Of a DNA stretch of 25,051 nucleotides, positions 1,114 through 25,051 are shown in pieces (positions within the stretch are counted from its first letter, which is position 1; each line of letters opens with the position of its first letter). This DNA comes from a virus, in the IMG/VR virus record IMGVR_UViG_3300009604_002944, positions 1 to 25,051 of that record; one strand, given 5' to 3'. A program made the position numbers and the translations under genes. The notes beneath the pieces were generated by a model, which was not told where the DNA came from, did not search any database, and worked only from the letters and a program-made list of their open reading frames with translations.

Positions 1114-2510
1114 GCCTCGCCGAGCTTGCCCAGGTTGTCTCCGAACTGCGCCACCGGGCCGAGACTCGCCCGCTCGAATATTGGGATCCGACTCCCCCTC
1201 AATTGGCGTTCCTGTCAGACCCGTCGCCGTGCGTTCTCCTCAGAGGCGCCAACCAAATAGGGAAAACGGCGTGTCAGATGGCCGAAATCATTTACCGTTG
1301 CACTGGCAGGCACCCGCACAAGATCGTCCCCAGACCTCCCACGGAATGTTGGATCGTGGTCCATTCCTGGGAACAGAGCCTATCCATCCAACAGAAGTTT
1401 TGGGAGCTTGCACCGAAGGACCTCCTCGATCCGAGCGTCGAGTATATGCACGGCAAAGGGTTCCGTGGGAAGACGCCGGTGGTGCTTTGGAAGAACGGAT
1501 CCCTTTTGCGGTTCAAAACTACGAACCAGGGCTCCCTCGGCCTCGCCTCTTCGACGATCTCCTATGTCGGATTGGATGAGCCACCCTCGGCCCGGATCTG
1601 GGGCGAACTGAATGCCCGCGTCCTCCGCCAAGGCCAAGGAGGCGCCATCGGGCTCACCCTCACGCCGGTGGGCGCTCCGCTCGGATGGCTGCGCCAATTG
1701 GTAAAAGACGGAGTCGTCTCCGATCACCAGGCCGCGCTGACCGTCGAGAACACCACGCCCATCGGCGGGCGACCGCTGGTCACCCAAGAACAGATAGACC
1801 GGATCGCCAAAGCCTACCTCCCGATCGATAGGGCTCAAAGGCTAAAGGGAGCGTGGGAAGGGCTAACGACTGGGCGTGTCTTCGAGGCGTTCAACCCGGA
1901 GACAATGGTCTCCGACGCTCCGCTGCCGTCATTGCCCCGGGACGGCAAGCCGTACTCCATCGCCATCGGGATAGACCATGGCGCCGACGCCGGATCACAA
2001 GTCGCCATCCTATGCGCTGTGGATAAGAGCGGAGAGCACCCGCGGATCTTCGTCCTCGACGAATACACAGCGGGCGCGGCCACCGCCGACGCTCACGCCC
2101 GGGCCATGCTCGCAATGCTCCACAGAAACGGGATGACCCACGCCCATGTGGATAAGTGGGTGGGCGACCGCGCCTACGGAGGTAAGCGGAGCGGAGGTCG
2201 GATGTCCAACCTGACCCTGATGAAAGGGCTGGAGGCGAGCCTTGGACTTCTCCCGGGGCGCCTTCCCTTCAGAATTCGGACGGCGTGGAAGCCCCGGTTT
2301 TCCGTCTACCATGGCGCCCAGGTTATCCACGAGACAATGGAGCGGGACAATTTCATAGTTCACCCGCGTTGCGAACAGTTGATAAAGTCGCTCAATCACT
2401 GGGCGTTCCGAGATGACGAAAACAAACACTCGATCGACGCGCTCCGTTACGCTGCGGTCACGCTCATTGACGATCGGATCAGGATGCCCGTCCGCATTAA
2501 GATGTATTGA
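1110..2510 (+). CDS. terL: Terminase large subunit (packaging ATPase and nuclease)
   Basis: The product is 466 residues and starts at a GTG that overlaps the previous stop (GTGA). The ATPase half shows a Walker A-type loop, GANQIGKT at residues 46-53, a Walker B with catalytic acid in VGLDEPP (Asp156, Glu157), and a coupling motif LTLTPVG near 182-188. The nuclease half has the RNase H-fold acids: Asp289 in GIDHG, Asp348 or Asp353 in HVDKWVGDR, and Asp443 in HSIDALRYAA. This protein cuts concatemeric DNA and pumps it into the prohead through the portal. Length and motif order fit a complete large terminase. The Walker A loop has Asn-Gln-Ile in place of the more usual small residues, which is common in phage terminases. 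The packaging type (cos, pac or headful) cannot be read from this sequence. Confidence 0.95.
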   Translation: MSLAELAQVVSELRHRAETRPLEYWDPTPPQLAFLSDPSPCVLLRGANQIGKTACQMAEIIYRCTGRHPHKIVPRPPTECWIVVHSWEQSLSIQQKFWELAPKDLLDPSVEYMHGKGFRGKTPVVLWKNGSLLRFKTTNQGSLGLASSTISYVGLDEPPSARIWGELNARVLRQGQGGAIGLTLTPVGAPLGWLRQLVKDGVVSDHQAALTVENTTPIGGRPLVTQEQIDRIAKAYLPIDRAQRLKGAWEGLTTGRVFEAFNPETMVSDAPLPSLPRDGKPYSIAIGIDHGADAGSQVAILCAVDKSGEHPRIFVLDEYTAGAATADAHARAMLAMLHRNGMTHAHVDKWVGDRAYGGKRSGGRMSNLTLMKGLEASLGLLPGRLPFRIRTAWKPRFSVYHGAQVIHETMERDNFIVHPRCEQLIKSLNHWAFRDDENKHSIDALRYAAVTLIDDRIRMPVRIKMY

Positions 2511-2536
2511 TGAACGCCCCGCAGAGGTAGCCCCCA

Positions 2537-4228
2537 ATGCCCCAACACATCCCCACCCCGCCGAGCATTAGCAACCCCGAAGAGGGCGCCCGGTGGGAGC
2601 ACACCAGACTCCGCCGCCGTTTGCTGGAGGGCACCTGGCACGAAGACCTGAGAGAGAGGTACCGGGCGCACATGGGGATCACCCGGTCACAGGCGCACGG
2701 TGAACTCGACCAGTCGTCAAATCCGTTCCGCACGATCTCCCGCGAGCTATCCGTGCTCTATGACGCGGCGCCGGTGGTCCGTCATGACGACGAAGCCCGC
2801 GCCGATGTTCGCGCCTTCCTGAGCCCCGCGGGCCCGGTGGTCTCCTCTTCGCTCTGGGCTCAGATGTCCTGGTTCCAATCGCGGGTGATTGGCCTCCGGG
2901 AGATGTTGCTCCGCGTTGACGTGAACCAGGAGGGAGAGCTTCACTACCGGCCGGTTCCGCCTGACATGGTGTTGTGCGAAAGCCACCAAAGCTACCCGGA
3001 TCGGCCGGTCAAGATCTGCGAACTTCGCGCCCGCTCCATCGGCGGCGCCGTCGCTTGGACCTGGGACGTTTACGACATTTCCGATCCGCAGAACCCCAGC
3101 TATCGGGTTTTGCTCGACGATAAGAGCGGGGAGCCCAACGGCGCCGACATTACTGAAGAGATCCTCGGCCGCACCTTTGTAGGCGAGGACTACTGGTACC
3201 GTCGGGCCGACGGCACCCCCGTTCTCCCGTGGGTGCTCTACCACGCCCAAAAGCGCGGCGATCGTTTGTGGGATACCTACGAGGGCATCGAGGTGGTCGA
3301 GGGAACGGTCAACCTGGCGATCGCCTATTCGTACCTCTTCCACGCTCTGCGGGATGCCTCATGGGCTCAGCGGTGGTTAGTCAACCTCCGCCCTGCAGGC
3401 CTCGGCGTGGACACCACATCCCTTGGCGCACGGGCGGAGGTCACCACCGATCCGGCTACCGTTCTTCTTCTGGAGAGCACCGCCGACGCCGCCGAGGGCG
3501 GTCAACCGATGGTAGGACAGTGGTCGTCCCCGTCCGATGTCGAAGGGATGGAGCGGGCGATCTCGGCGATGGCTAACCGCCTGGCCCAGGACGCCGGGAT
3601 CCCGCCGTCCGACATCCAACGCATGGGCGGAACCGCTCGCAGTGGATACGCGATCAGCCTCTCAAACGACGGCAAGCGGGTAGCCCAGCGCCGATACGCG
3701 CCACAATTCCAGGACCACGATCGGAACCTCCTCGGCCTCTCCGCTCTGATGGTCAACCGGGCCACCGGCTCCGCCCTTCCTGAAGACGGATATGCGGTGG
3801 TCTATTCTCAGATCCCCCTGTCACCGTCCGAGATCAAAGAGCGGAGGGCCAACGTCCTCGAATTGCTCGAAGCTAAACTCATTGACCGCGTCTCGGCTTA
3901 CATGGAAGTTCACCCCGGGTTGACAGAGGCGCAGGCCGCCGCCGACCTGGACGCCATCGACAACGGCCAACGCGGAGAGGTCCGCTCGGGCGCCTCCATT
4001 CCGGTTCTGCCGCTGCCCACCGGCGCAGGAGAGAAGCTACAGGATACAGCGTTGAACGGCGCACAGGTCCAAGCCGCTCAGGCCATCGTTTCAGGCGTGA
4101 GCGCCGGACAGATACCGCGAGCCACCGGCGTCGAGATGTTGTCATCATTCTTCAATCTGCCCCCCGCCGTTGCCGAGTCGATCATGGGTACCGTCGGCGG
4201 CACCTTCAACCCTCGGCCCATCGCCTAA
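2537..4228 (+). CDS. Portal protein
   Basis: The product is 563 residues, the usual length of a siphovirus portal, and begins at an ATG 27 bases after the terminase stop with CAGAGGTAG upstream. It sits between the large terminase and the scaffold, the normal place for a portal. The first 50 residues are charged and helical; the middle carries the alternating strand-helix wing and stem pattern, and the last 110 residues contain an LNGAQVQAAQAIVSGVSAG segment followed by IPRATGVEML, which resembles the C-terminal clip or crown helices seen in many portal proteins. Portals form a dodecameric ring at one capsid vertex, dock the terminase motor and later the tail. The identification is from length, position and C-terminal pattern rather than a single active-site motif. 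Confidence 0.88.
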   Translation: MPQHIPTPPSISNPEEGARWEHTRLRRRLLEGTWHEDLRERYRAHMGITRSQAHGELDQSSNPFRTISRELSVLYDAAPVVRHDDEARADVRAFLSPAGPVVSSSLWAQMSWFQSRVIGLREMLLRVDVNQEGELHYRPVPPDMVLCESHQSYPDRPVKICELRARSIGGAVAWTWDVYDISDPQNPSYRVLLDDKSGEPNGADITEEILGRTFVGEDYWYRRADGTPVLPWVLYHAQKRGDRLWDTYEGIEVVEGTVNLAIAYSYLFHALRDASWAQRWLVNLRPAGLGVDTTSLGARAEVTTDPATVLLLESTADAAEGGQPMVGQWSSPSDVEGMERAISAMANRLAQDAGIPPSDIQRMGGTARSGYAISLSNDGKRVAQRRYAPQFQDHDRNLLGLSALMVNRATGSALPEDGYAVVYSQIPLSPSEIKERRANVLELLEAKLIDRVSAYMEVHPGLTEAQAAADLDAIDNGQRGEVRSGASIPVLPLPTGAGEKLQDTALNGAQVQAAQAIVSGVSAGQIPRATGVEMLSSFFNLPPAVAESIMGTVGGTFNPRPIA

Positions 4229-4244
4229 AACAGAGAGAAACACA

Positions 4245-4853
4245 ATGCCATTCAACTGTCCCAAATGCTCCGCTGAAATTGACGCCGTGCCACAGGACCG
4301 ATTCGACACAATCTACAAGGAACGGGGCGACCTGAAGACGGAGCTTAACCAAGCCCGCCAGGGTGAAGAGGCCGCGCTTGCCTCGGCCAATTCTGCCGAA
4401 GAGCTGAAAGCCGAATTGGCCGAATCCCGCGCCCGCCTGGAAGCGACAAAGGACGCACACTCCCGGGTCATGCATTGCACCCGCGCGGGGATCTCAGACG
4501 CCGATGACGTGGCGGATCTGCTCGCCGTCTTCGACCGCCGCGCACCTGAAGGCGTCGAACTCGCCGCCTGGCTCGACAACCGGGCGGAGCTTCCCCGCGC
4601 CGCCGCCGCTCTTCTCCCCTCGCTTGAGGTCACCATGACAAAGCCCACCGCCACCGCCGCGCCCGCACCGGAGGCGCCATCGGCAGAACCAGCGCCCGCC
4701 ACCCAGGGCACACCGCCACCGCCGACGAACAACGGAGCGGTAACGTTCAGTGATAGCCCGAAGGCGTGGACCGCTACCACGATCTCACAGGCCGACTACA
4801 AGCAGAACCGCGCCGCTATTCGCCGCGCGGCCGGGCTCCCTCCGAAGAGTTGA
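4245..4853 (+). CDS. Capsid scaffold-like protein with N-terminal CxxC and coiled coil
   Basis: The product is 202 residues. The ATG at 4245 is preferred because ACAGAGAG lies just upstream; an earlier ATG at 4170 would read through the end of the portal gene. Domains in order: a CPKC knuckle at residues 5-8 with no obvious second pair; a charged coiled coil at about 20-75, rich in Glu, Lys and Ala; a helical section; a low-complexity Ala-Pro-Thr linker at about 127-165; and a short basic C-terminal helix ending in RRAAGLPPKS. A coiled coil plus a basic C-terminal capsid-binding helix between portal and capsid genes is the classic layout of an internal scaffold, which directs prohead assembly and then leaves. 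The lone CxxC could bind metal across a dimer, which is an inference. Confidence 0.72.
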   Translation: MPFNCPKCSAEIDAVPQDRFDTIYKERGDLKTELNQARQGEEAALASANSAEELKAELAESRARLEATKDAHSRVMHCTRAGISDADDVADLLAVFDRRAPEGVELAAWLDNRAELPRAAAALLPSLEVTMTKPTATAAPAPEAPSAEPAPATQGTPPPPTNNGAVTFSDSPKAWTATTISQADYKQNRAAIRRAAGLPPKS

Positions 4854-4855
4854 CG

Positions 4856-4884
4856 TTGACACCGCCCCGGCTCATCCGATAGGG
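4856..4884 (+). promoter_or_regulatory. Possible promoter upstream of the major capsid gene
   Basis: A perfect TTGACA lies at 4856-4861, followed after 16 bases by GATAGG, a poor match to a -10 box (three of six). It sits at the start of the longest gap in the structural block (4854-5021, 168 bases), where a separate promoter for the abundant capsid protein would make sense. The -10 is weak and the host sigma factor is unknown, so confidence is low. Confidence 0.25.
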
Positions 4885-4966
4885 TTGGTCAACTGCTCTG
4901 GTTCAGGTCGCACCTGCAACAGCGGAATAAGGCCGGACGCACGACACCCAACACGTGCCTCCTATT

Positions 4967-4988
4967 GCCGCGCCCATGTGCGGGCGGC
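4967..4988 (+). other. GC-rich hairpin in the capsid gene leader
   Basis: GCCGC at 4967-4971 pairs with GCGGC within GCGGGCGGC at 4980-4988, with extra C-G pairs inside after one bulge. It ends about 35 bases before the capsid ATG and is followed by CTTTCCC rather than a run of T, so it is a poor terminator. It could affect mRNA stability or translation of the capsid gene. The rest of the 168-base gap shows no gene. Confidence 0.3.
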
Positions 4989-5021
4989 GCCTTTCCCTGT
5001 TTACAATGAGCATTGAATATC

Positions 5022-5945
5022 ATGGCCGACGAAATTCTTTTTAGTGGTCTCAGTGGCGATCTCGCCCTTGCCGCAATTCTTCACCAGGAGATGAACCTTC
5101 TTCTGGCTGACCGCGCCAGCATGGCGAACCACCCCGCGATCTCCTACCTCGGAGACGTTGCGGGGCGTGGCTCCACCGCGCTCGAAGTCGGCCTCGCCGG
5201 GCTCGACGGCTACGATCTCATGGGCTCAGTGGCCGAGAACGCCACCACGAGTAACACGGCATTGACGTCTGCGAGCCCCGCGGTCACGATCGCCCGGCAA
5301 GCTCTCCAGTATCAGATCTCGGATCTCGCTACGCTCACCTCTTCTCTGGGGCTCGACGCTGACCGTCTGGCCGAAAGTATGGTCGGTTCAGCCGTCATGC
5401 GACTCCAGGAGATGATCGCCAATGTTGCTGATGACTTCACCGGATCTGTGGGCTCAACCGGCGTGAACATGGACGTGGACAATTGGTTCAGCGCCCAGTA
5501 CACCCTCACGCAGAACAGCGTGCCGGGCCCTTACGTGGCTCTGCTTCACCCTGTGCAATTGACTGACTGGCAGTCGAGCCTCAGATCAGAGACCGGACCG
5601 CTCCAATTCAATGCTCCCTCAAATGAGGCCTTGGCGATCAAAGGTCCGGGCTATGCGGGATCTTTCGGTTCTGTGGATATCTTTAGCTCTTCGCATGTCC
5701 CCACCGCAAATGCGGGCGCTGACCGGGCCGGAGCAATGTTCGGAGCCGGGGCCATCGGGTACGCAGATGGGAGCGTCTCCGCCATCCGTGGCGCCGGTGA
5801 CGTGGTCTACCCCGCGGGGACCAAAATTGTGGTCGAGTTCGAGCGAGACGCCGGGTATGCCTACACGAAGATCGTGGGCTCCTATTTCGTGGGTACAAGT
5901 ATTCTCGAAGACGGCCGCGGAGTCAGCATTATCACGGACGCCTGA
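5022..5945 (+). CDS. Major capsid protein
   Basis: The product is 307 residues, starting MADEILFSG at the ATG at 5022. A TTG three codons upstream is also in frame but has no better ribosome site; neither start has a clear Shine-Dalgarno sequence, which is odd for a highly expressed gene. It follows the scaffold-like gene and precedes the head-tail joining genes, as a capsid gene should. The N-terminal third is helical and is followed by mixed strand-helix segments with conserved-looking VPGPYVALLHP and a C-terminal region of beta strands (KIVVEFERD, KIVGSYFVG). This fits an HK97-fold coat protein, which forms the icosahedral shell. I see no protease gene, so maturation cleavage is uncertain. 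The call depends on position, size and fold pattern. Confidence 0.8.
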   Translation: MADEILFSGLSGDLALAAILHQEMNLLLADRASMANHPAISYLGDVAGRGSTALEVGLAGLDGYDLMGSVAENATTSNTALTSASPAVTIARQALQYQISDLATLTSSLGLDADRLAESMVGSAVMRLQEMIANVADDFTGSVGSTGVNMDVDNWFSAQYTLTQNSVPGPYVALLHPVQLTDWQSSLRSETGPLQFNAPSNEALAIKGPGYAGSFGSVDIFSSSHVPTANAGADRAGAMFGAGAIGYADGSVSAIRGAGDVVYPAGTKIVVEFERDAGYAYTKIVGSYFVGTSILEDGRGVSIITDA

Positions 5946-19996: not shown

Positions 19997-20266
19997 ATGC
20001 TCTCTGCCCTCCTCGCGTGCGCGGCCCTGGCTGGAGAGCCACCACCGCCCGCACAGGCGCCCACAGACGCCGCCCAGCACATGGAACAGATCAACGACAA
20101 CCTCGACGCGGCGCTGGAGCGTTTACGCCAAATGGCGAAAGAGGCCCCGCCGCCACCGGCCGAGCCTCCATCTGATACGCCACCCGCAAAGGGCACCTAT
20201 GCGGTGGTCACCGTGGAGGCGCCACCGCCGCCTGTAGAGCCGCCCGCACCGCCGCCGCAACAATGA
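19997..20266 (+). CDS. Short secreted, proline-rich protein; possible outer-membrane spanin
   Basis: The product is 89 residues with AGGAGG (19985-19990) six bases before the ATG. The N-terminus is hydrophobic with LLAC at residues 5-8, which loosely fits a lipobox, or alternatively a cleavage after ALA before Gly-Glu-Pro-Pro-Pro-Pro. A helical centre (AAQHMEQINDNLDAALERLRQMA) is flanked by Pro-rich runs, and the end is PPPPVEPPAPPPQQ. Small proline-rich lipoproteins near endolysins are often outer-membrane spanins (Rz1 type). The hydrophobic part is very short and has no positive charge before it, which weakens the lipoprotein idea. The last 59 bases overlap the opposite-strand RHH gene tail to tail. 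Confidence 0.58.
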   Translation: MLSALLACAALAGEPPPPAQAPTDAAQHMEQINDNLDAALERLRQMAKEAPPPPAEPPSDTPPAKGTYAVVTVEAPPPPVEPPAPPPQQ

Positions 20267-20402
20267 ACGCGGAGAGCTTGAGCCCTTGAGCATCGGCCGC
20301 GAGCTTGATCGCCGCCTTCTCTGTTTCGGTCATGTTGACCTGGACGCGCTTTGTCCGCTTCAGTTCTGGCGTCGAGGGTGGGCGTCCTCGTTTGCGGGTC
20401 AT
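20208..20402 (-). CDS. Ribbon-helix-helix DNA-binding protein with AT-hook-like N-terminus
   Basis: The product is 64 residues; its ATG overlaps the stop of the upstream reverse-strand gene (ATGA at 20399-20402). Residues 3-9 (RKRGRPP) contain the Gly-Arg-Pro core of an AT-hook with basic flanks. Residues about 19-57 match the ribbon-helix-helix fold: a short strand (RVQVNM), a first helix (ETEKAAIKLAADAQG) and a second helix beginning at LKLSAFIVAAAVRAAL, similar to DUF1778 or CopG-type antitoxins and repressors. Such proteins bind DNA as dimers through the strand. No toxin gene is next to it in this window, so a phage transcription regulator is likelier than a toxin-antitoxin pair. Its tail overlaps the forward spanin-like gene by 59 bases. 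Confidence 0.72.
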   Translation of the reverse strand: MTRKRGRPPSTPELKRTKRVQVNMTETEKAAIKLAADAQGLKLSAFIVAAAVRAALQAAVAPPR

Positions 20403-21520: not shown

Positions 21521-22744
21521 TCAGGCCGCACCTTCTCCGCCTTCGACTGTCACCCGGTGGGCAAAGAGCGCCCCAGCATGGTGGCGGATCCGCGCTTCCG
21601 CGATCGACATGTATTCGGGCTCACACTCGATACCGATAAAGGCGAACCCTTCGAGGAGGGCTGCCGCGCCGGTGGTGCCTGAGCCCATGAACGGGTCCAA
21701 GATGACCGAACCGCGCTGACATCCCACAAGACGCGAGATCCATCTCATGAGCGTTAGTGGCTTGACCGTTGGGTGAAAATTCTTGACCGTCTCCGCCGTC
21801 CGTCCAGCGCCCGCCCGGGGATTGTCCAGACCTGCCGAGCCTTCGACCCGGGCCACCGCTTCAAAGCCCCGCCGCCCTGTCAACCGTTCGCACCCTTCCT
21901 CCCGTTCTCCCCTGCTCGCTTTGGGTGTGGCGTATATGTTGGCGGGCCATCTGCCCAGGTCATGCTCCGAGGACATCCCGGGACGATCGAAGATCACCCC
22001 ACCAGAAGCCGCCTCAGAAACCCTATCATTCCATCCACCCTGCGGCCCCGGCCAAGCCGGATCACCGTACCCAATTCGGCACGCGTCAATGTTGAGGGCC
22101 CCGGTCCCATGCTGTAGGACGTTGGCGGCGATGGTGCCGTCTGGTGGTTTGCGGGCAAGTACGGCAGGTTCAAACGCGGGCTTTAAGGCGGTACCGAACG
22201 CCGACCACTTCTCACCTTCTGGCGTGCGCGCCTTGTATGGCTCGACGGCGTGAGAGGTTAGGCGCTCTTCCTTGTAGCGCCCGGAGGGCAGGTGGGTACT
22301 GGCCACCGGGATCGCTCGACCACGGGCGGGTTGCCCCATCCGCTTGTCGATGTCGTTGGCGACGTTGTGGCTCTTTGGGAACCCTTGCCACTGCAGGTGG
22401 GCGAGCTGATCTCTGATCTGGAAATTGCCGTCCTCCAGAGCGGACGCAAGCCGGTGGATCGTGCGGGTTGCACTGAAGGCGACAAGGTGGCCGCCGGGTT
22501 TGAGCACCCGGTGACAGGCCCGCGCCCAGGTGACACCGGGCACAGCAGCGTCCCACGCTTGACCCATGAAGCCGCCGCCCTGGCGTCCGTCTTCGACGTC
22601 GTCCCACGTGCGGGCGCGCCCGTCTGGGCTCAGGCCATACGGGGGATCGGTGACGATGGCGTCAACGGATGCCGGTGGGAGCGCCGCCAGTACTTCGAGG
22701 CAGTCGCCCAAGATGAGACGGGCGGTGGTCACGCTGGAGGCCAT
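21521..22744 (-). CDS. Beta-class DNA methyltransferase, probably N6-adenine
   Basis: The product is 407 residues from the ATG at 22744, which lies inside the last 16 bases of the upstream gene; the in-frame ATG at 22879 would overlap much more. Catalytic motif IV is DPPY at residues 33-36. The SAM-binding motif I, LDPFMGSGTTG, lies near the C-terminus, preceded by HPTVKP. The order motif IV before motif I defines the beta class. DPPY rather than SPPY favours N6-adenine over N4-cytosine. Between them, FMGQAWD, LKPGGHLVAF and NVLQHGTGALNID segments are typical of phage members. No restriction nuclease is beside it, so it is an orphan enzyme that may protect phage DNA. The target sequence cannot be read from the protein. 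Confidence 0.88.
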   Translation of the reverse strand: MASSVTTARLILGDCLEVLAALPPASVDAIVTDPPYGLSPDGRARTWDDVEDGRQGGGFMGQAWDAAVPGVTWARACHRVLKPGGHLVAFSATRTIHRLASALEDGNFQIRDQLAHLQWQGFPKSHNVANDIDKRMGQPARGRAIPVASTHLPSGRYKEERLTSHAVEPYKARTPEGEKWSAFGTALKPAFEPAVLARKPPDGTIAANVLQHGTGALNIDACRIGYGDPAWPGPQGGWNDRVSEAASGGVIFDRPGMSSEHDLGRWPANIYATPKASRGEREEGCERLTGRRGFEAVARVEGSAGLDNPRAGAGRTAETVKNFHPTVKPLTLMRWISRLVGCQRGSVILDPFMGSGTTGAAALLEGFAFIGIECEPEYMSIAEARIRHHAGALFAHRVTVEGGEGAA

Positions 22745-23151
22745 GGGCGGTGGTGTATCTCTGCCCACCATCGGACGAATGTGAGCATGTGATCCACGCT
22801 TCGAGGCCATCCGATAAGCTCCGCTACATCGTTCCAGGTGGCTGACTTGTGTTTCACGTACAGATGGTAAGCCAGCCACGCCGACTCATCGCAGGCATGG
22901 ACTTTCTTGATCCGGCAATCGCTGGCAAAGATCGCACCGCGCCAATCGCCGCATTGACAGGATTTGAACCCAAAGGGGCGCTCCATCTTTCCCGATGTCG
23001 GGTTGTATTCTCGCTCCATACTATCGGGCGGCGTTGGCCATTTGTTCAGGTGGCCCACAAAGAATTCGCCGCACCACCGGCACGTTCCCTTTCCGATTGT
23101 TCGATTGGCGTGCCAAACCGCACGATCGATCGGTATCGGTAGCTCTGTCAC
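22729..23151 (-). CDS. Cysteine-rich phage protein of unknown function
   Basis: The product is 140 residues and starts at a GTG that overlaps the upstream stop (GTGA at 23148-23151). Cysteines are arranged as CRWC at about residues 24-27, CQC at about 62-64, then single Cys residues in ASDCRIKKVHACDE. This can form one or two zinc sites, and WRGAIFASDCRI with the basic stretch suggests nucleic-acid contact. The C-terminal half is helical (SAWLAYHLYVKH, ATWNDVAELIGW, DHMLTFVRWWAEIHH). HNH-like nucleases also carry CxxC pairs, but no convincing HNH His is seen. It lies between a 71-residue unknown and the methyltransferase gene, which it overlaps by 16 bases. Confidence 0.65.
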   Translation of the reverse strand: MTELPIPIDRAVWHANRTIGKGTCRWCGEFFVGHLNKWPTPPDSMEREYNPTSGKMERPFGFKSCQCGDWRGAIFASDCRIKKVHACDESAWLAYHLYVKHKSATWNDVAELIGWPRSVDHMLTFVRWWAEIHHRPWPPA

Positions 23152-23363
23152 GCTTCCCCCGTTTCTCTCCCGTAGGAGAGCCATGCCTTGACGCTGGCCG
23201 TCTGGAGGATGGCCGCGAGGTCTTGCGGCGCCTGGCCTGTCTCGATGGCGTGGATGGCCGCCGCCTGTAGCAGTTCTTGGCACAGCGTGAGCGGGCCGAT
23301 CCCGCCCTCGTCCGCCCAGGCGATGAGCGAGGCGAGATGAGCCCGGAGGGTGAAGAGGCTCAT
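23148..23363 (-). CDS. Small helical protein, 71 residues, unknown
   Basis: The ATG at 23363 overlaps the upstream radical SAM stop (ATGA at 23360-23363), and the stop overlaps the next GTG. An in-frame ATG at 23549 would lie deep in the radical SAM gene and is rejected. The product is nearly all helix: SLFTLRAHLASLIAWADEGG, LTLCQELLQAAAIHAIETGQ and LAAILQTASVKAWLSYG. The family is unknown. Overlaps at both ends suggest that it is translated as part of one operon. Confidence 0.62.
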   Translation of the reverse strand: MSLFTLRAHLASLIAWADEGGIGPLTLCQELLQAAAIHAIETGQAPQDLAAILQTASVKAWLSYGRETGEA

Positions 23364-24277
23364 TGACCGCCCCACATTGAAAGCTGATTGCGGGCCGCCG
23401 CCGTCAACGTCTCGACCGGTTTGTGAAGTGCGTAGGTCAACGCGGGGCGCGACCAGTTCTTCGCCAATTTCCGCCAGTCGCGCGAGTATTCGATCCAGTC
23501 GTTGTCGGGTTGGTAGAGTTGCGCGTGGGGCATCATTCCGAGATCCCACACACGTTCAAGGCGCTTTGTGGCTTTCACGATCGTGTCATTGCCAAACCCG
23601 ATCAAAGTGTAGACCCGCAAACGATAGCGGGAAAAGTCAGAAAGGAGAGCCCTTGCCGCTTCGAGTTGTTCAACCTGCCGGTTTGTGTCCGCAGCTAAGA
23701 AGATCTGGAATAGGCGGATCGTCTTCAGTTGCTCCACAAACCACGGATTGACCAGGCGGATGTCAATACCCCCGGCAAATTGCACCCCGCGCGTTTTGTC
23801 GAATGCAGCATGCCCCGGCATCCGGCGAAGCATTGCAAACACCCGCGCCTGATGTGCCTGGGATGCTTGCAAGAAGTTGTTGTCTTGAATGATCCACCCG
23901 TCCTCGAAGTTCTCGATCTCTGAGATCCGGCCCTCTCGACTGGGCACCAAGCACCACGGGCACTTTCGATTGCACCCCCGGGTAGTGAACGTGACACCCT
24001 CCGCGAGGTAGCGCCCAGGGACGAAGGCCGAGGCCGTCTCATCGCCCAGAGCCGGGCCGCCAACGCGCACCACCGGATAGAACGCGGACCAGGCTCGCCG
24101 CAATCGCTCCGCCTCAACGAGATCCCATGTGAACGATACCGAAATGTGCACCTCGGAAACGTCACCCGGGGGCGGGCGAAACAACGGGGGATCACCGACG
24201 AAGGCAAGCCGATCTTTAGGCGTGTGAGAGGTGCGCCGCGGAAAGACCCGCAGCAGATCCGGGCGGCCGTTCATCAT
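23360..24277 (-). CDS. Radical SAM enzyme of unknown substrate
   Basis: The product is 305 residues from the ATG at 24277 overlapping the Gp157-like stop (ATGA); a second ATG follows immediately. The radical SAM cluster motif CNRKCPWC gives Cys102, Cys106 and Cys109 (CxxxCxxC), ligands of the 4Fe-4S cluster that cleaves S-adenosylmethionine. The preceding 90 residues (VHISVSFTWDLVEAERL, VRVGGPAL) look like a degenerate cobalamin-binding-like domain. Downstream, WIIQDNNFL, a Gly-Gly motif in FAGGIDIRLV, and LRVYTLIGFGND follow the usual TIM-barrel order. Several phages carry relatives near DNA metabolism genes. Here it sits two genes from the edge and three before a methyltransferase, so a DNA, nucleotide or tRNA modification role is possible; this is inference. 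Confidence 0.85.
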   Translation of the reverse strand: MMNGRPDLLRVFPRRTSHTPKDRLAFVGDPPLFRPPPGDVSEVHISVSFTWDLVEAERLRRAWSAFYPVVRVGGPALGDETASAFVPGRYLAEGVTFTTRGCNRKCPWCLVPSREGRISEIENFEDGWIIQDNNFLQASQAHQARVFAMLRRMPGHAAFDKTRGVQFAGGIDIRLVNPWFVEQLKTIRLFQIFLAADTNRQVEQLEAARALLSDFSRYRLRVYTLIGFGNDTIVKATKRLERVWDLGMMPHAQLYQPDNDWIEYSRDWRKLAKNWSRPALTYALHKPVETLTAAARNQLSMWGGQ

Positions 24278-24780
24278 TTGAGCGTCACCGACCAGTCATG
24301 CAACAGGGAGAACCCTTCAAGCTCAGCGCCACCGCGGAGGGCGGAGAGGGCGCCTTTCTTGTCCATCCTCTTCACCTCTTCCACAGAGACGAACTCAGGC
24401 GGCCAGGCGTCCGGGTCTGAGGGGCTGACCATTGACGCCCTCCGTGAGAGGTGCGCGGAAAAGTGATCGCCACGGATCGCGCTCTCCCCCGTTAGGTCGT
24501 GATGTGCGATCAACAATTCCCGCGCATTGCCCCGTAACCTATCCCGCTTCGTTCTGAGCGACTTCACCCGGGCGGAGGCCCTGTCGGCTAACCGCTTGAA
24601 ATGATCGGCCTCAGCGTTCAGCCGACGGACGACCGCGGCGATGGCGCCGAGCTTGTCGGGCGCCGCGTCGAAGTATTCGGCTAACCGCTGTTCGGATTCT
24701 GGCGTCAATGCGCCGCCCTCGTCTTCGAGGAGAGCGACCAGGCGCCCGGCCTCCACTGTCAGATCGAATGCGGAACTCAA
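24274..24780 (-). CDS. Gp157-family phage protein
   Basis: The product is 168 residues. The TTG start at 24780 overlaps the stop of the upstream gene (TTGA at 24777-24780). The centre is a long charged coiled coil at about residues 45-90 (VVRRLNAEADHFKRLADRAS, then VKSLRTKRDRLRGNARELL), followed by a beta segment (AIRGDHFSAHLSRRASMV) and an end with PEFVSVEEVKRMDKKGALSALRGG and a GFSLL strand. This order, coil then strands then an Lys-rich helix and a short strand, is that of the siphovirus Gp157 family (PF05565), first named in Streptococcus phage Sfi21-related work on host resistance. The molecular role is not known. The context of SSB-like and radical SAM genes fits a DNA replication or recombination module. 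Confidence 0.72.
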   Translation of the reverse strand: MSSAFDLTVEAGRLVALLEDEGGALTPESEQRLAEYFDAAPDKLGAIAAVVRRLNAEADHFKRLADRASARVKSLRTKRDRLRGNARELLIAHHDLTGESAIRGDHFSAHLSRRASMVSPSDPDAWPPEFVSVEEVKRMDKKGALSALRGGAELEGFSLLHDWSVTLK

Positions 24781-25051
24781 AACGGTAAATCCCCATCGGC
24801 CGCCGCCTTGACCGCTTCGATCTCTTCGATCTCAGCCGCCCACGCTTCAGGCATCTGTGGGCCCGGGGCGTCCCGGTCCTCTGGTGGTAGCTCGCAAGGG
24901 ATCGGTGTGCTGGGCCATTGGAGGAAGTCGCACCCCTTTCCATTATCAACGCACTTGAACGAAGGCCATGCGGGCTTCTGTGTCTTGTTTCGCTCGCGGT
25001 TGTCCCACAGGTCCCCGCCGCATTCCGGGCACCTGCCGAGGAGCTTTCCGC
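24777..25051 (-). CDS. Zinc-ribbon protein with SSB-like C-terminal tip, N-terminus outside the window
   Basis: The frame is open to the right edge of the window, so only the last 90 or so residues are present. A zinc-binding block starts CPECGGDLWDNRER and continues to FKCVDNGKGCDFLQWP, giving two cysteine pairs. The C-terminus is DGDLPF, close to the acidic-hydrophobic tip DDDIPF of single-stranded DNA-binding proteins, which recruits partner enzymes. I infer a ssDNA-binding or annealing protein of the phage replication module. It might also be a recombination mediator that uses the same tip. The stop overlaps the next start (TTGA). Confidence 0.65.
   Translation of the reverse strand, partial: GKLLGRCPECGGDLWDNRERNKTQKPAWPSFKCVDNGKGCDFLQWPSTPIPCELPPEDRDAPGPQMPEAWAAEIEEIEAVKAAADGDLPF

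Follow-up and report, generated by a model that had tools for sequence, protein, structure and literature searches.

Radical S-adenosylmethionine (SAM) enzymes hold a [4Fe-4S] cluster by three cysteines and reductively cleave SAM to a 5′-deoxyadenosyl radical, which pulls hydrogen from a substrate inside the barrel, and they functionalise unreactive carbon atoms without oxygen. Some members, MgmA and CysS among them, use cobalamin in addition. The SAM-altering phage enzyme CmoA falls outside the radical SAM superfamily. In phages, the most chemically varied DNA modifications are built on hydroxymethyl handles, carboxymethyl handles being newer, and the phage CmoA/CmoX system (carboxymethylcytosine) pairs a SAM-altering enzyme with a DNA methyltransferase homologue (PMC12783734, partial text). 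A role in DNA modification has been proposed for a radical SAM/DUF483 module of the Thermus phages Cumys and phiMa (PMC11437467, partial text), and a radical SAM gene of a Parabacteroides phage, which may or may not belong to the family described here, phrog_9298, has been discussed in connection with quorum sensing (PMC10773633, partial text). In the open-access literature searched, we found no study of the function of phrog_9298 or of its association with methyltransferases.

The window analysed here is an entire IMG/VR virus record of 25,051 bases, and a tightly packed minus-strand operon near its right end runs from a first gene cut by the window edge through a Gp157-family gene, a radical SAM gene and two small genes to a DNA methyltransferase gene:

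24777–25051, minus strand: 3′ part of the first operon gene, zinc-ribbon-like, with the acidic tail DGDLPF; full copy in contig L014, likely at 4774–5508
24274–24780, minus strand: Gp157-family gene, TTG start (Pfam PF05565, 3e-14)
23360–24277, minus strand: radical SAM protein, 305 aa, ATG start, phrog_9298 family, clade A; C102/C106/C109, DNN 132–134, D197, Y223 and R239 conserved
23148–23363, minus strand: small gene 1, uncharacterised, 71 aa
22729–23151, minus strand: small gene 2, uncharacterised, 140 aa, GTG start, CxxC-containing
21521–22744, minus strand: N6/N4-type DNA methyltransferase (Pfam N6_N4_Mtase, PF01555, 9.4e-25; phrog_67), start at 22744 probable

The first five genes are joined by four stop/start overlaps of 4 nt each (24777–24780, 24274–24277, 23360–23363 and 23148–23151), and the methyltransferase, started at 22744, probably overlaps small gene 2 by 16 nt; a longer methyltransferase ORF, from 22879, overlaps the preceding gene. 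The initial annotation had described a radical SAM gene with an intact CxxxCxxC cluster, locked by overlapping start and stop codons to a Gp157 gene upstream and small genes downstream within a phage DNA-metabolism operon, and the reading frame, the overlaps and the Gp157 and N6/N4 methyltransferase matches agree with it. Its "SSB-like" gene did not stand: the first operon gene, an open frame of 332 aa in L014 (244 aa from the ATG at 4774), had no SSB-family match over the 254 residues scanned (L014:4744–5505) and matched only the uncharacterised phrog_22961, its SSB resemblance being due to the acidic DGDLPF tail. The gene also has a zinc-ribbon-like stretch, and an annealing protein is our guess for it. 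The window radical SAM protein recurs at 100% identity in two more contigs (L002, which is L014, and L003, which is L015), and L014 reaches further upstream, into opposite-strand genes for a repressor-like protein, a RuvC-like resolvase, a primase-like protein and a VapE-like helicase. The window contains no tRNA gene and no Rfam RNA, and a promoter and terminator scan of it gave nothing above chance. A small basic ORF at 20208–20402 (minus strand), which reads as ribbon-helix-helix DNA-binding-like, ends the leftward genes.

The cluster motif of the radical SAM protein is CNRKCPWC (C102-x3-C106-x2-C109), followed by xVPxxEG, and the three cysteines were kept in 148 of 148 rows of an alignment that included the window protein and took sequences of at least 240 aa. 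In a set of 75 sequences, the invariant positions were R100, G101, these cysteines, N133, N134 and D197, with D132, E115, G116, Y223, R239, P250 and W275 conserved at 90% or more; some genome copies outside this set carry DDN in place of DNN, or ANN in Sporomusa. The phrog_9298 profile, "radical SAM domain protein", matched the window protein at E 5.6e-24 and all 75 members of the 75-sequence alignment (A3). The Pfam Radical_SAM model gave the window protein 15.7 bits against a cut-off of 29.5, so recognition by Pfam only would be weak. A tree of 153 rows set the clade of the window protein (clade A; 124 rows, support 100, stem 1.11) apart from clade B, which takes in the Bacteroides-phage type and larger bacterial relatives. 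The window's clade is thus a well-separated part of phrog_9298, differing from the rest also in how its N-terminal domain is reduced and in its association with DNA methyltransferases, as detailed below.

NCBIfam matches were weak across the family (best E 3.4e-5, to the RimO model) and spread over B12-type and methylthiotransferase models; the B12-binding/radical SAM model matched weakly in 19 of 75 members (best 1.3e-4), in the window protein at residues 98–139, the cluster region. Neither a cobalamin-binding domain nor a TRAM domain was found by Pfam at E 0.01 in the 75 members. Cysteines outside the motif recurred at columns 222 (104 of the 148 rows), 138 (75), 196 (67) and 47 (57), the first three lying in the barrel and column 47 being the sole cysteine column of the N-terminal domain, and the N-terminal cysteine triad for a second (auxiliary) cluster was not found in the 148 rows. 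MiaB, RimO and MtaB have the RGCxxxCxxCxVPxxxG loop and the fold in common with the family, but the window protein has about 55–80 fewer residues before the cluster and, like its relatives, neither the triad nor TRAM; together with a TIGR00089 score of 10.8 bits against a cut-off of 251, this rules out membership among the methylthiotransferases. With neither an auxiliary-cluster triad nor a Pfam cobalamin domain found, the protein does not count as a methylthiotransferase, nor can it be called a demonstrated B12 enzyme.

An AlphaFold2 model of the window protein, built with 75 sequences (pLDDT 91.3, pTM 0.85), contained two domains, a reduced cobalamin-domain-like N-terminus and a radical SAM barrel with a partial (β/α)6 core. 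The 50 fold-match rows listed were, judging by their titles, all radical SAM enzymes. By VIA-align, the model best matched AprD4, a radical SAM 1,2-diol dehydratase (PDB 6fd2; Z 15.5, 266 residues aligned, 4.2 Å), with both the N-terminal domain and the barrel aligned, tied within 1 Z with MgmA (Z 14.6, 261 aligned, 4.7 Å) and TsrM (Z 14.6, 267 aligned, 4.6 Å) and followed by MiaB (Z 13.8, 276 aligned, 6.3 Å). The two-domain match spanned model residues 4–291, and rows covering mainly the barrel reached Z about 10.5. Ordered by Foldseek E-value, MiaB came first (1.5e-6), and the single Foldseek match among viral models at or below E 0.001 was a giant-virus methylthiotransferase. AprD4 is 15% identical to the window protein, around which no aminoglycoside context was seen; nor was a partner reductase noticed among the operon genes. 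The cobalamin-dependent enzymes TsrM, OxsB, TokK, MgmA and CysS share the order of the two domains and the fold (Z 14.6 to 10.3); the window family differs from them in its short N-terminal domain and in having no cobalamin-binding Pfam domain.

A clade-B protein modelled by the same approach (pLDDT 93.8) tied between AprD4 (Z 17.7), MgmA (17.6), MtaB (17.6), MiaB (17.4) and TsrM (16.9). Its N-terminal domain has a first helix at 15–26 that is absent from the window model, whereas the window model has a helix at 50–64 that is absent from the clade-B model; only 101 residues precede the cluster in the window protein, and the first Rossmann helix is missing from its model. In these predicted structures the N-terminal domain is fold-related to the cobalamin-binding and methylthiotransferase N-domains and reduced in both clades, differently in each, which upholds the initial impression of a degenerate cobalamin-binding domain: the match to AprD4, MgmA and TsrM covers nearly the whole length, in a family whose 75 members gave no cobalamin Pfam match at E 0.01.

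The family is large, at least 504 of the 600 pattern matches listed from one collection passing a loose tblastn test. GenBank phages with a match were phages of Bacteroides, Phocaeicola, Marinitoga and Methanomassiliicoccales or came from faecal records, and three plasmids with a match came from Alistipes and Bacteroides; no match of 60% identity or more to the window protein was found in 50,697 GenBank phage records. We counted family members in genomes of four sampled classes, each centred on a genome chosen for having the gene, with at most six first-look candidates scored per genome. At E 1e-25, centre genomes included, the family was present in 20 of 380 genomes of the Sporomusa class and 26 of 391 of the Ohessyouella class, but in 2 of 369 of the Accumulibacter class and 1 of 385 of the Rhodospirillales-MAG class. 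With the centres removed, the first two classes gave 44 of 769 genomes and the other two 1 of 752, or, at E 1e-60, which is closer to clade A, 9 of 769 versus 0 of 752. Judging from the loci, the first two classes would be Firmicutes and the other two proteobacterial, so that the family occurs in 5–6% of genomes of the two sampled Firmicutes classes and in almost none of the two proteobacterial ones. This distribution would fit an oxygen-sensitive enzyme, with phylogeny and oxygen confounded in the comparison, and the family is carried by many viruses of mostly oxygen-shunning microbes.

The window methyltransferase is the third gene downstream of the radical SAM gene, and in clade A DNA methyltransferases recur directly beside it. 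Radical SAM loci were dereplicated at 85% identity of the radical SAM protein, from 200 to 154, and their genes were called with a simple longest-ORF script, which often sets starts too long and misses small genes. For the Pfam comparison, 120 of the 212 clade-A neighbours of 70–700 aa (218 before the upper limit) were drawn and 25 dropped by hand (23 opposite-strand genes, plus two same-strand genes whose loci have a split radical SAM gene), leaving 95 genes, one of them still opposite-strand; the control was 95 of the 121 neighbours of phage SSB genes, same strand only. DNA methyltransferases were the commonest Pfam families among the clade-A direct neighbours, with C5 methyltransferase in 9, N6_N4 in 5, D12 in 3 and Dam in 1 (and Mom in 1), compared with one C5 and one D12 beside SSB, amounting to 18 of 95 versus 2 of 95 (Fisher p = 2e-4); the underlying tables listed 25 of 26 families for clade A and 25 of 28 for SSB, and a two-family protein could count twice.

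Because HMMs first built from radical SAM neighbourhoods favour radical SAM loci, the methyltransferase HMMs were iterated on all sets, with Pfam added for the same reason. By these HMMs, 32 of 243 genes directly beside a clade-A radical SAM gene were methyltransferases, as were 1 of 49 beside clade B, 4 of 156 beside SSB, 4 of 155 beside a PAPS-reductase-like gene and 8 of 142 beside Gp37/Gp68, the last control omitting L070 and L289, which were already in the radical SAM set or on one of its contigs. The clade-A rate exceeded that of the three pooled controls (16 of 453; p = 5e-6) and, by a smaller margin, that of Gp37/Gp68 alone (p = 0.02). A radical SAM gene occurred within 0 of 80 SSB, 7 of 78 Gp37/Gp68 and 10 of 80 PAPS-reductase-like loci, counts not used as evidence since all query sets came from radical SAM loci. 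Over the 154 loci, the methyltransferase rate fell steeply with distance from the radical SAM gene, from 28 of 302 genes at distance 1 and 44 of 588 at 1–2 to 27 of 784 at 3–5 and 16 of 1053 at 6–10. Of the 123 rows in a clade-A tree, 30 have an adjacent methyltransferase, a pattern that needs 30 gains or losses, at least 23 of them forced by supported branches; the label is no more clustered than when shuffled (mean 27), so a single inherited block does not account for the excess.

The association has bounds. A methyltransferase lies within 3 genes in only 43 of 128 clade-A loci. Over whole loci of up to 8 kb on each side, N6/N4 methyltransferases occurred in 39 of 154 loci versus 6 of 80 SSB loci (p = 8e-4, uncorrected for about 20 families), and C5 methyltransferase, PAPS-reductase-like, Gp37/Gp68 and ASCH genes showed no significant excess over SSB loci. 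In a prophage-like region of Sporomusa ovata DSM 2662 (L174, NZ_ASXP01000004.1), a 109-aa ORF separates the C5 methyltransferase from the radical SAM gene, so that a pair scored as adjacent is really two genes apart, and other adjacent cases, in the radical SAM and control sets alike, may be so too. Several methyltransferase classes adjoin clade-A radical SAM genes, and this mixture implies no single target base.

The closest link is a fusion. In L145 (6968–8551), a single 527-aa frame joins the entire radical SAM protein (residues 1–277) to an N6_N4_Mtase domain (308–512; PF01555, 1.5e-20), the only ORF with both matches among the loci examined. It also occurs in L456, which is identical to L145 over 10.8 kb and therefore represents the same phage, so the fusion counts once. 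Outside the window's phage population, a locus whose radical SAM protein is 65% identical to that of the window (L019) has a run of methyltransferase, PAPS-reductase-like and radical SAM genes, with a 4-nt overlap and then 5 nt before the radical SAM ATG.

Beyond methyltransferases, no gene cluster lay near the radical SAM gene in more than 33 of the 154 loci, and a dedicated partner gene for the family was rejected. The two small proteins at 22729–23363, put forward at first as partners, turned up in no locus compared other than the window and near-identical contigs of its phage, the radical SAM gene itself being found in 198 loci; they accompany no other radical SAM homologue compared and hence are not family partners. 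PAPS-reductase-like genes also thin out with distance (18 of 588 at 1–2 genes, 7 of 1053 at 6–10), leaving room for a looser link. Gp37/Gp68 (DUF5131) genes, whose products have their own cysteine motif, were near the radical SAM gene in 20 of 154 loci (e.g. L061:14281–15009 and L046:5109–6071).

With its intact cluster motif and superfamily membership, the window protein would be expected to bind the cluster and generate a radical from SAM. We propose, with a probability of roughly 45%, that the phage uses it to modify DNA in company with DNA methyltransferases, with a putative substrate that may be a nucleotide in phage DNA, a methyltransferase-altered base, or a methyl-donor or nucleotide precursor for the methyltransferase; alongside these methyltransferases, it would belong to the DNA-modifying, and probably anti-restriction, equipment of the phage. 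We infer a DNA substrate from the company of the gene only. Since cobalamin and a second cluster are apparently absent, oxidation, dehydration, isomerisation or another rearrangement would be expected over B12-type methylation or methylthiolation. CmoA/CmoX offers a precedent for a phage-borne SAM-altering enzyme accompanied by a DNA methyltransferase homologue, differing in that the window enzyme is a radical SAM protein. The Thermus phage module differs from the window in its DUF483, which is absent among the window neighbours scanned and among the 25 of 26 families listed for the 95 clade-A neighbours, and no Thermus phage appeared among tblastn matches at 1e-5 to GenBank phages, a collection that may lack the Cumys and phiMa genomes.

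Both nucleotide hypermodification and tRNA modification had been named as candidate functions at the outset. The repeated adjacency to DNA methyltransferases and the one fusion speak indirectly for a nucleic-acid substrate, and the tRNA half of that suggestion fares worse, with no tRNA gene in the window and no RNA-modification Pfam family listed for the window or the clade neighbours. An enzyme that modifies tRNA or rRNA during infection like its fold relatives MiaB and MtaB, for example sustaining translation or dodging a tRNA-cutting defence, looks distinctly unlikely to us, even though MiaB heads the sequence-profile matches in the PDB (E 0.0038, followed by RimO at 0.035, both confined to the cluster loop), comes within 1.7 Z of the best fold match and ties with the best for the clade-B model, and LoVEphage, of clade B, has a gene annotated "tRNA splicing ligase" a few genes downstream. 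The missing N-terminal triad and TRAM domain argue against it, as do the window's want of tRNA and Rfam RNA and direct-neighbour Pfam families led by DNA methyltransferases.

The mixed methyltransferase classes and the presence nearby of further cargo (PAPS-reductase-like and Gp37/Gp68 genes, for example) would also suit an enzyme of anti-defence or host takeover whose substrate is a small molecule (a nucleotide signal, SAM or a free nucleotide), the methyltransferases being merely fellow anti-restriction cargo, and shared cargo placement could by itself cause the adjacency. Small-molecule substrates have parallels in the top fold match AprD4, whose substrate is paromamine and which works with a partner reductase (PMC5461906, partial text), and in viperin, a radical SAM enzyme that yields modified nucleotides (PMC12926258, partial text). 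We nevertheless consider a small-molecule role unlikely, as the fusion and the steep distance decay exceed what general cargo would lead one to expect and the two cargo control genes have lower methyltransferase rates, Gp37/Gp68 only modestly so. A host-metabolism (auxiliary metabolic) gene, or a protein or lipid modifier unrelated to nucleic acids, has relatives in fold that act on sugars, proteins and lipids (AprD4, MgmA and GDGT-MAS); it is very unlikely given the place of the gene among DNA-handling genes, the absence of a biosynthetic partner among its recurrent neighbour clusters, and the one terminase cluster tested, which had 0 of 464 genes within 3 genes of the radical SAM gene versus 12 of 839 further out.

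The DNA-modification reading can take two forms, each compatible with mixed methyltransferase classes: the radical SAM enzyme may act on DNA independently, adding another anti-restriction mark, or it may supply or modify something common to all the methyltransferases. We speculate, as a doubtful extension, that phages of anaerobes carry an undescribed radical-based DNA modification in which the enzyme alters the methyl-bearing base made by a methyltransferase or makes an altered methyl donor for several methyltransferase classes. If true, this would account for the recurrence of C5, N6/N4 and Dam/D12 enzymes next to the gene and for the fusion seen in one phage. Such a radical SAM route would be a new way of decorating DNA, suited to phages of anaerobes, and because cultured bacteria carry copies of the family, for example Acetobacterium wieringae DSM 1911, the question is directly testable. 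In A. wieringae, locus L151 (8001–9816) pairs the radical SAM gene, its cluster motif and DNN intact, with an N6/N4-type methyltransferase gene; a terminase search of that genome, as a check for a prophage, gave two weak matches only.

Several loci are of interest in themselves. The prophage-like region of S. ovata noted above carries PAPS-reductase-like, replication initiation, C5 methyltransferase, radical SAM, ASCH-like, terminase and portal genes, and its radical SAM protein is without the usual D of the DNN motif, having IMNANN in place of the family's IIQDNN. Two family members lie close together on one viral contig (L090:532–1773 and 2268–3083, plus strand), one of them, of 413 aa, with a longer N-terminal domain. 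A larger relative of 685 aa with a fuller N-terminal domain (L450:1122–3179, minus strand) overlaps a 562-aa gene at 3148–4836 (minus strand) that reads as NERD-type nuclease/helicase-like, and the two are possibly a chromosomal defence pair.
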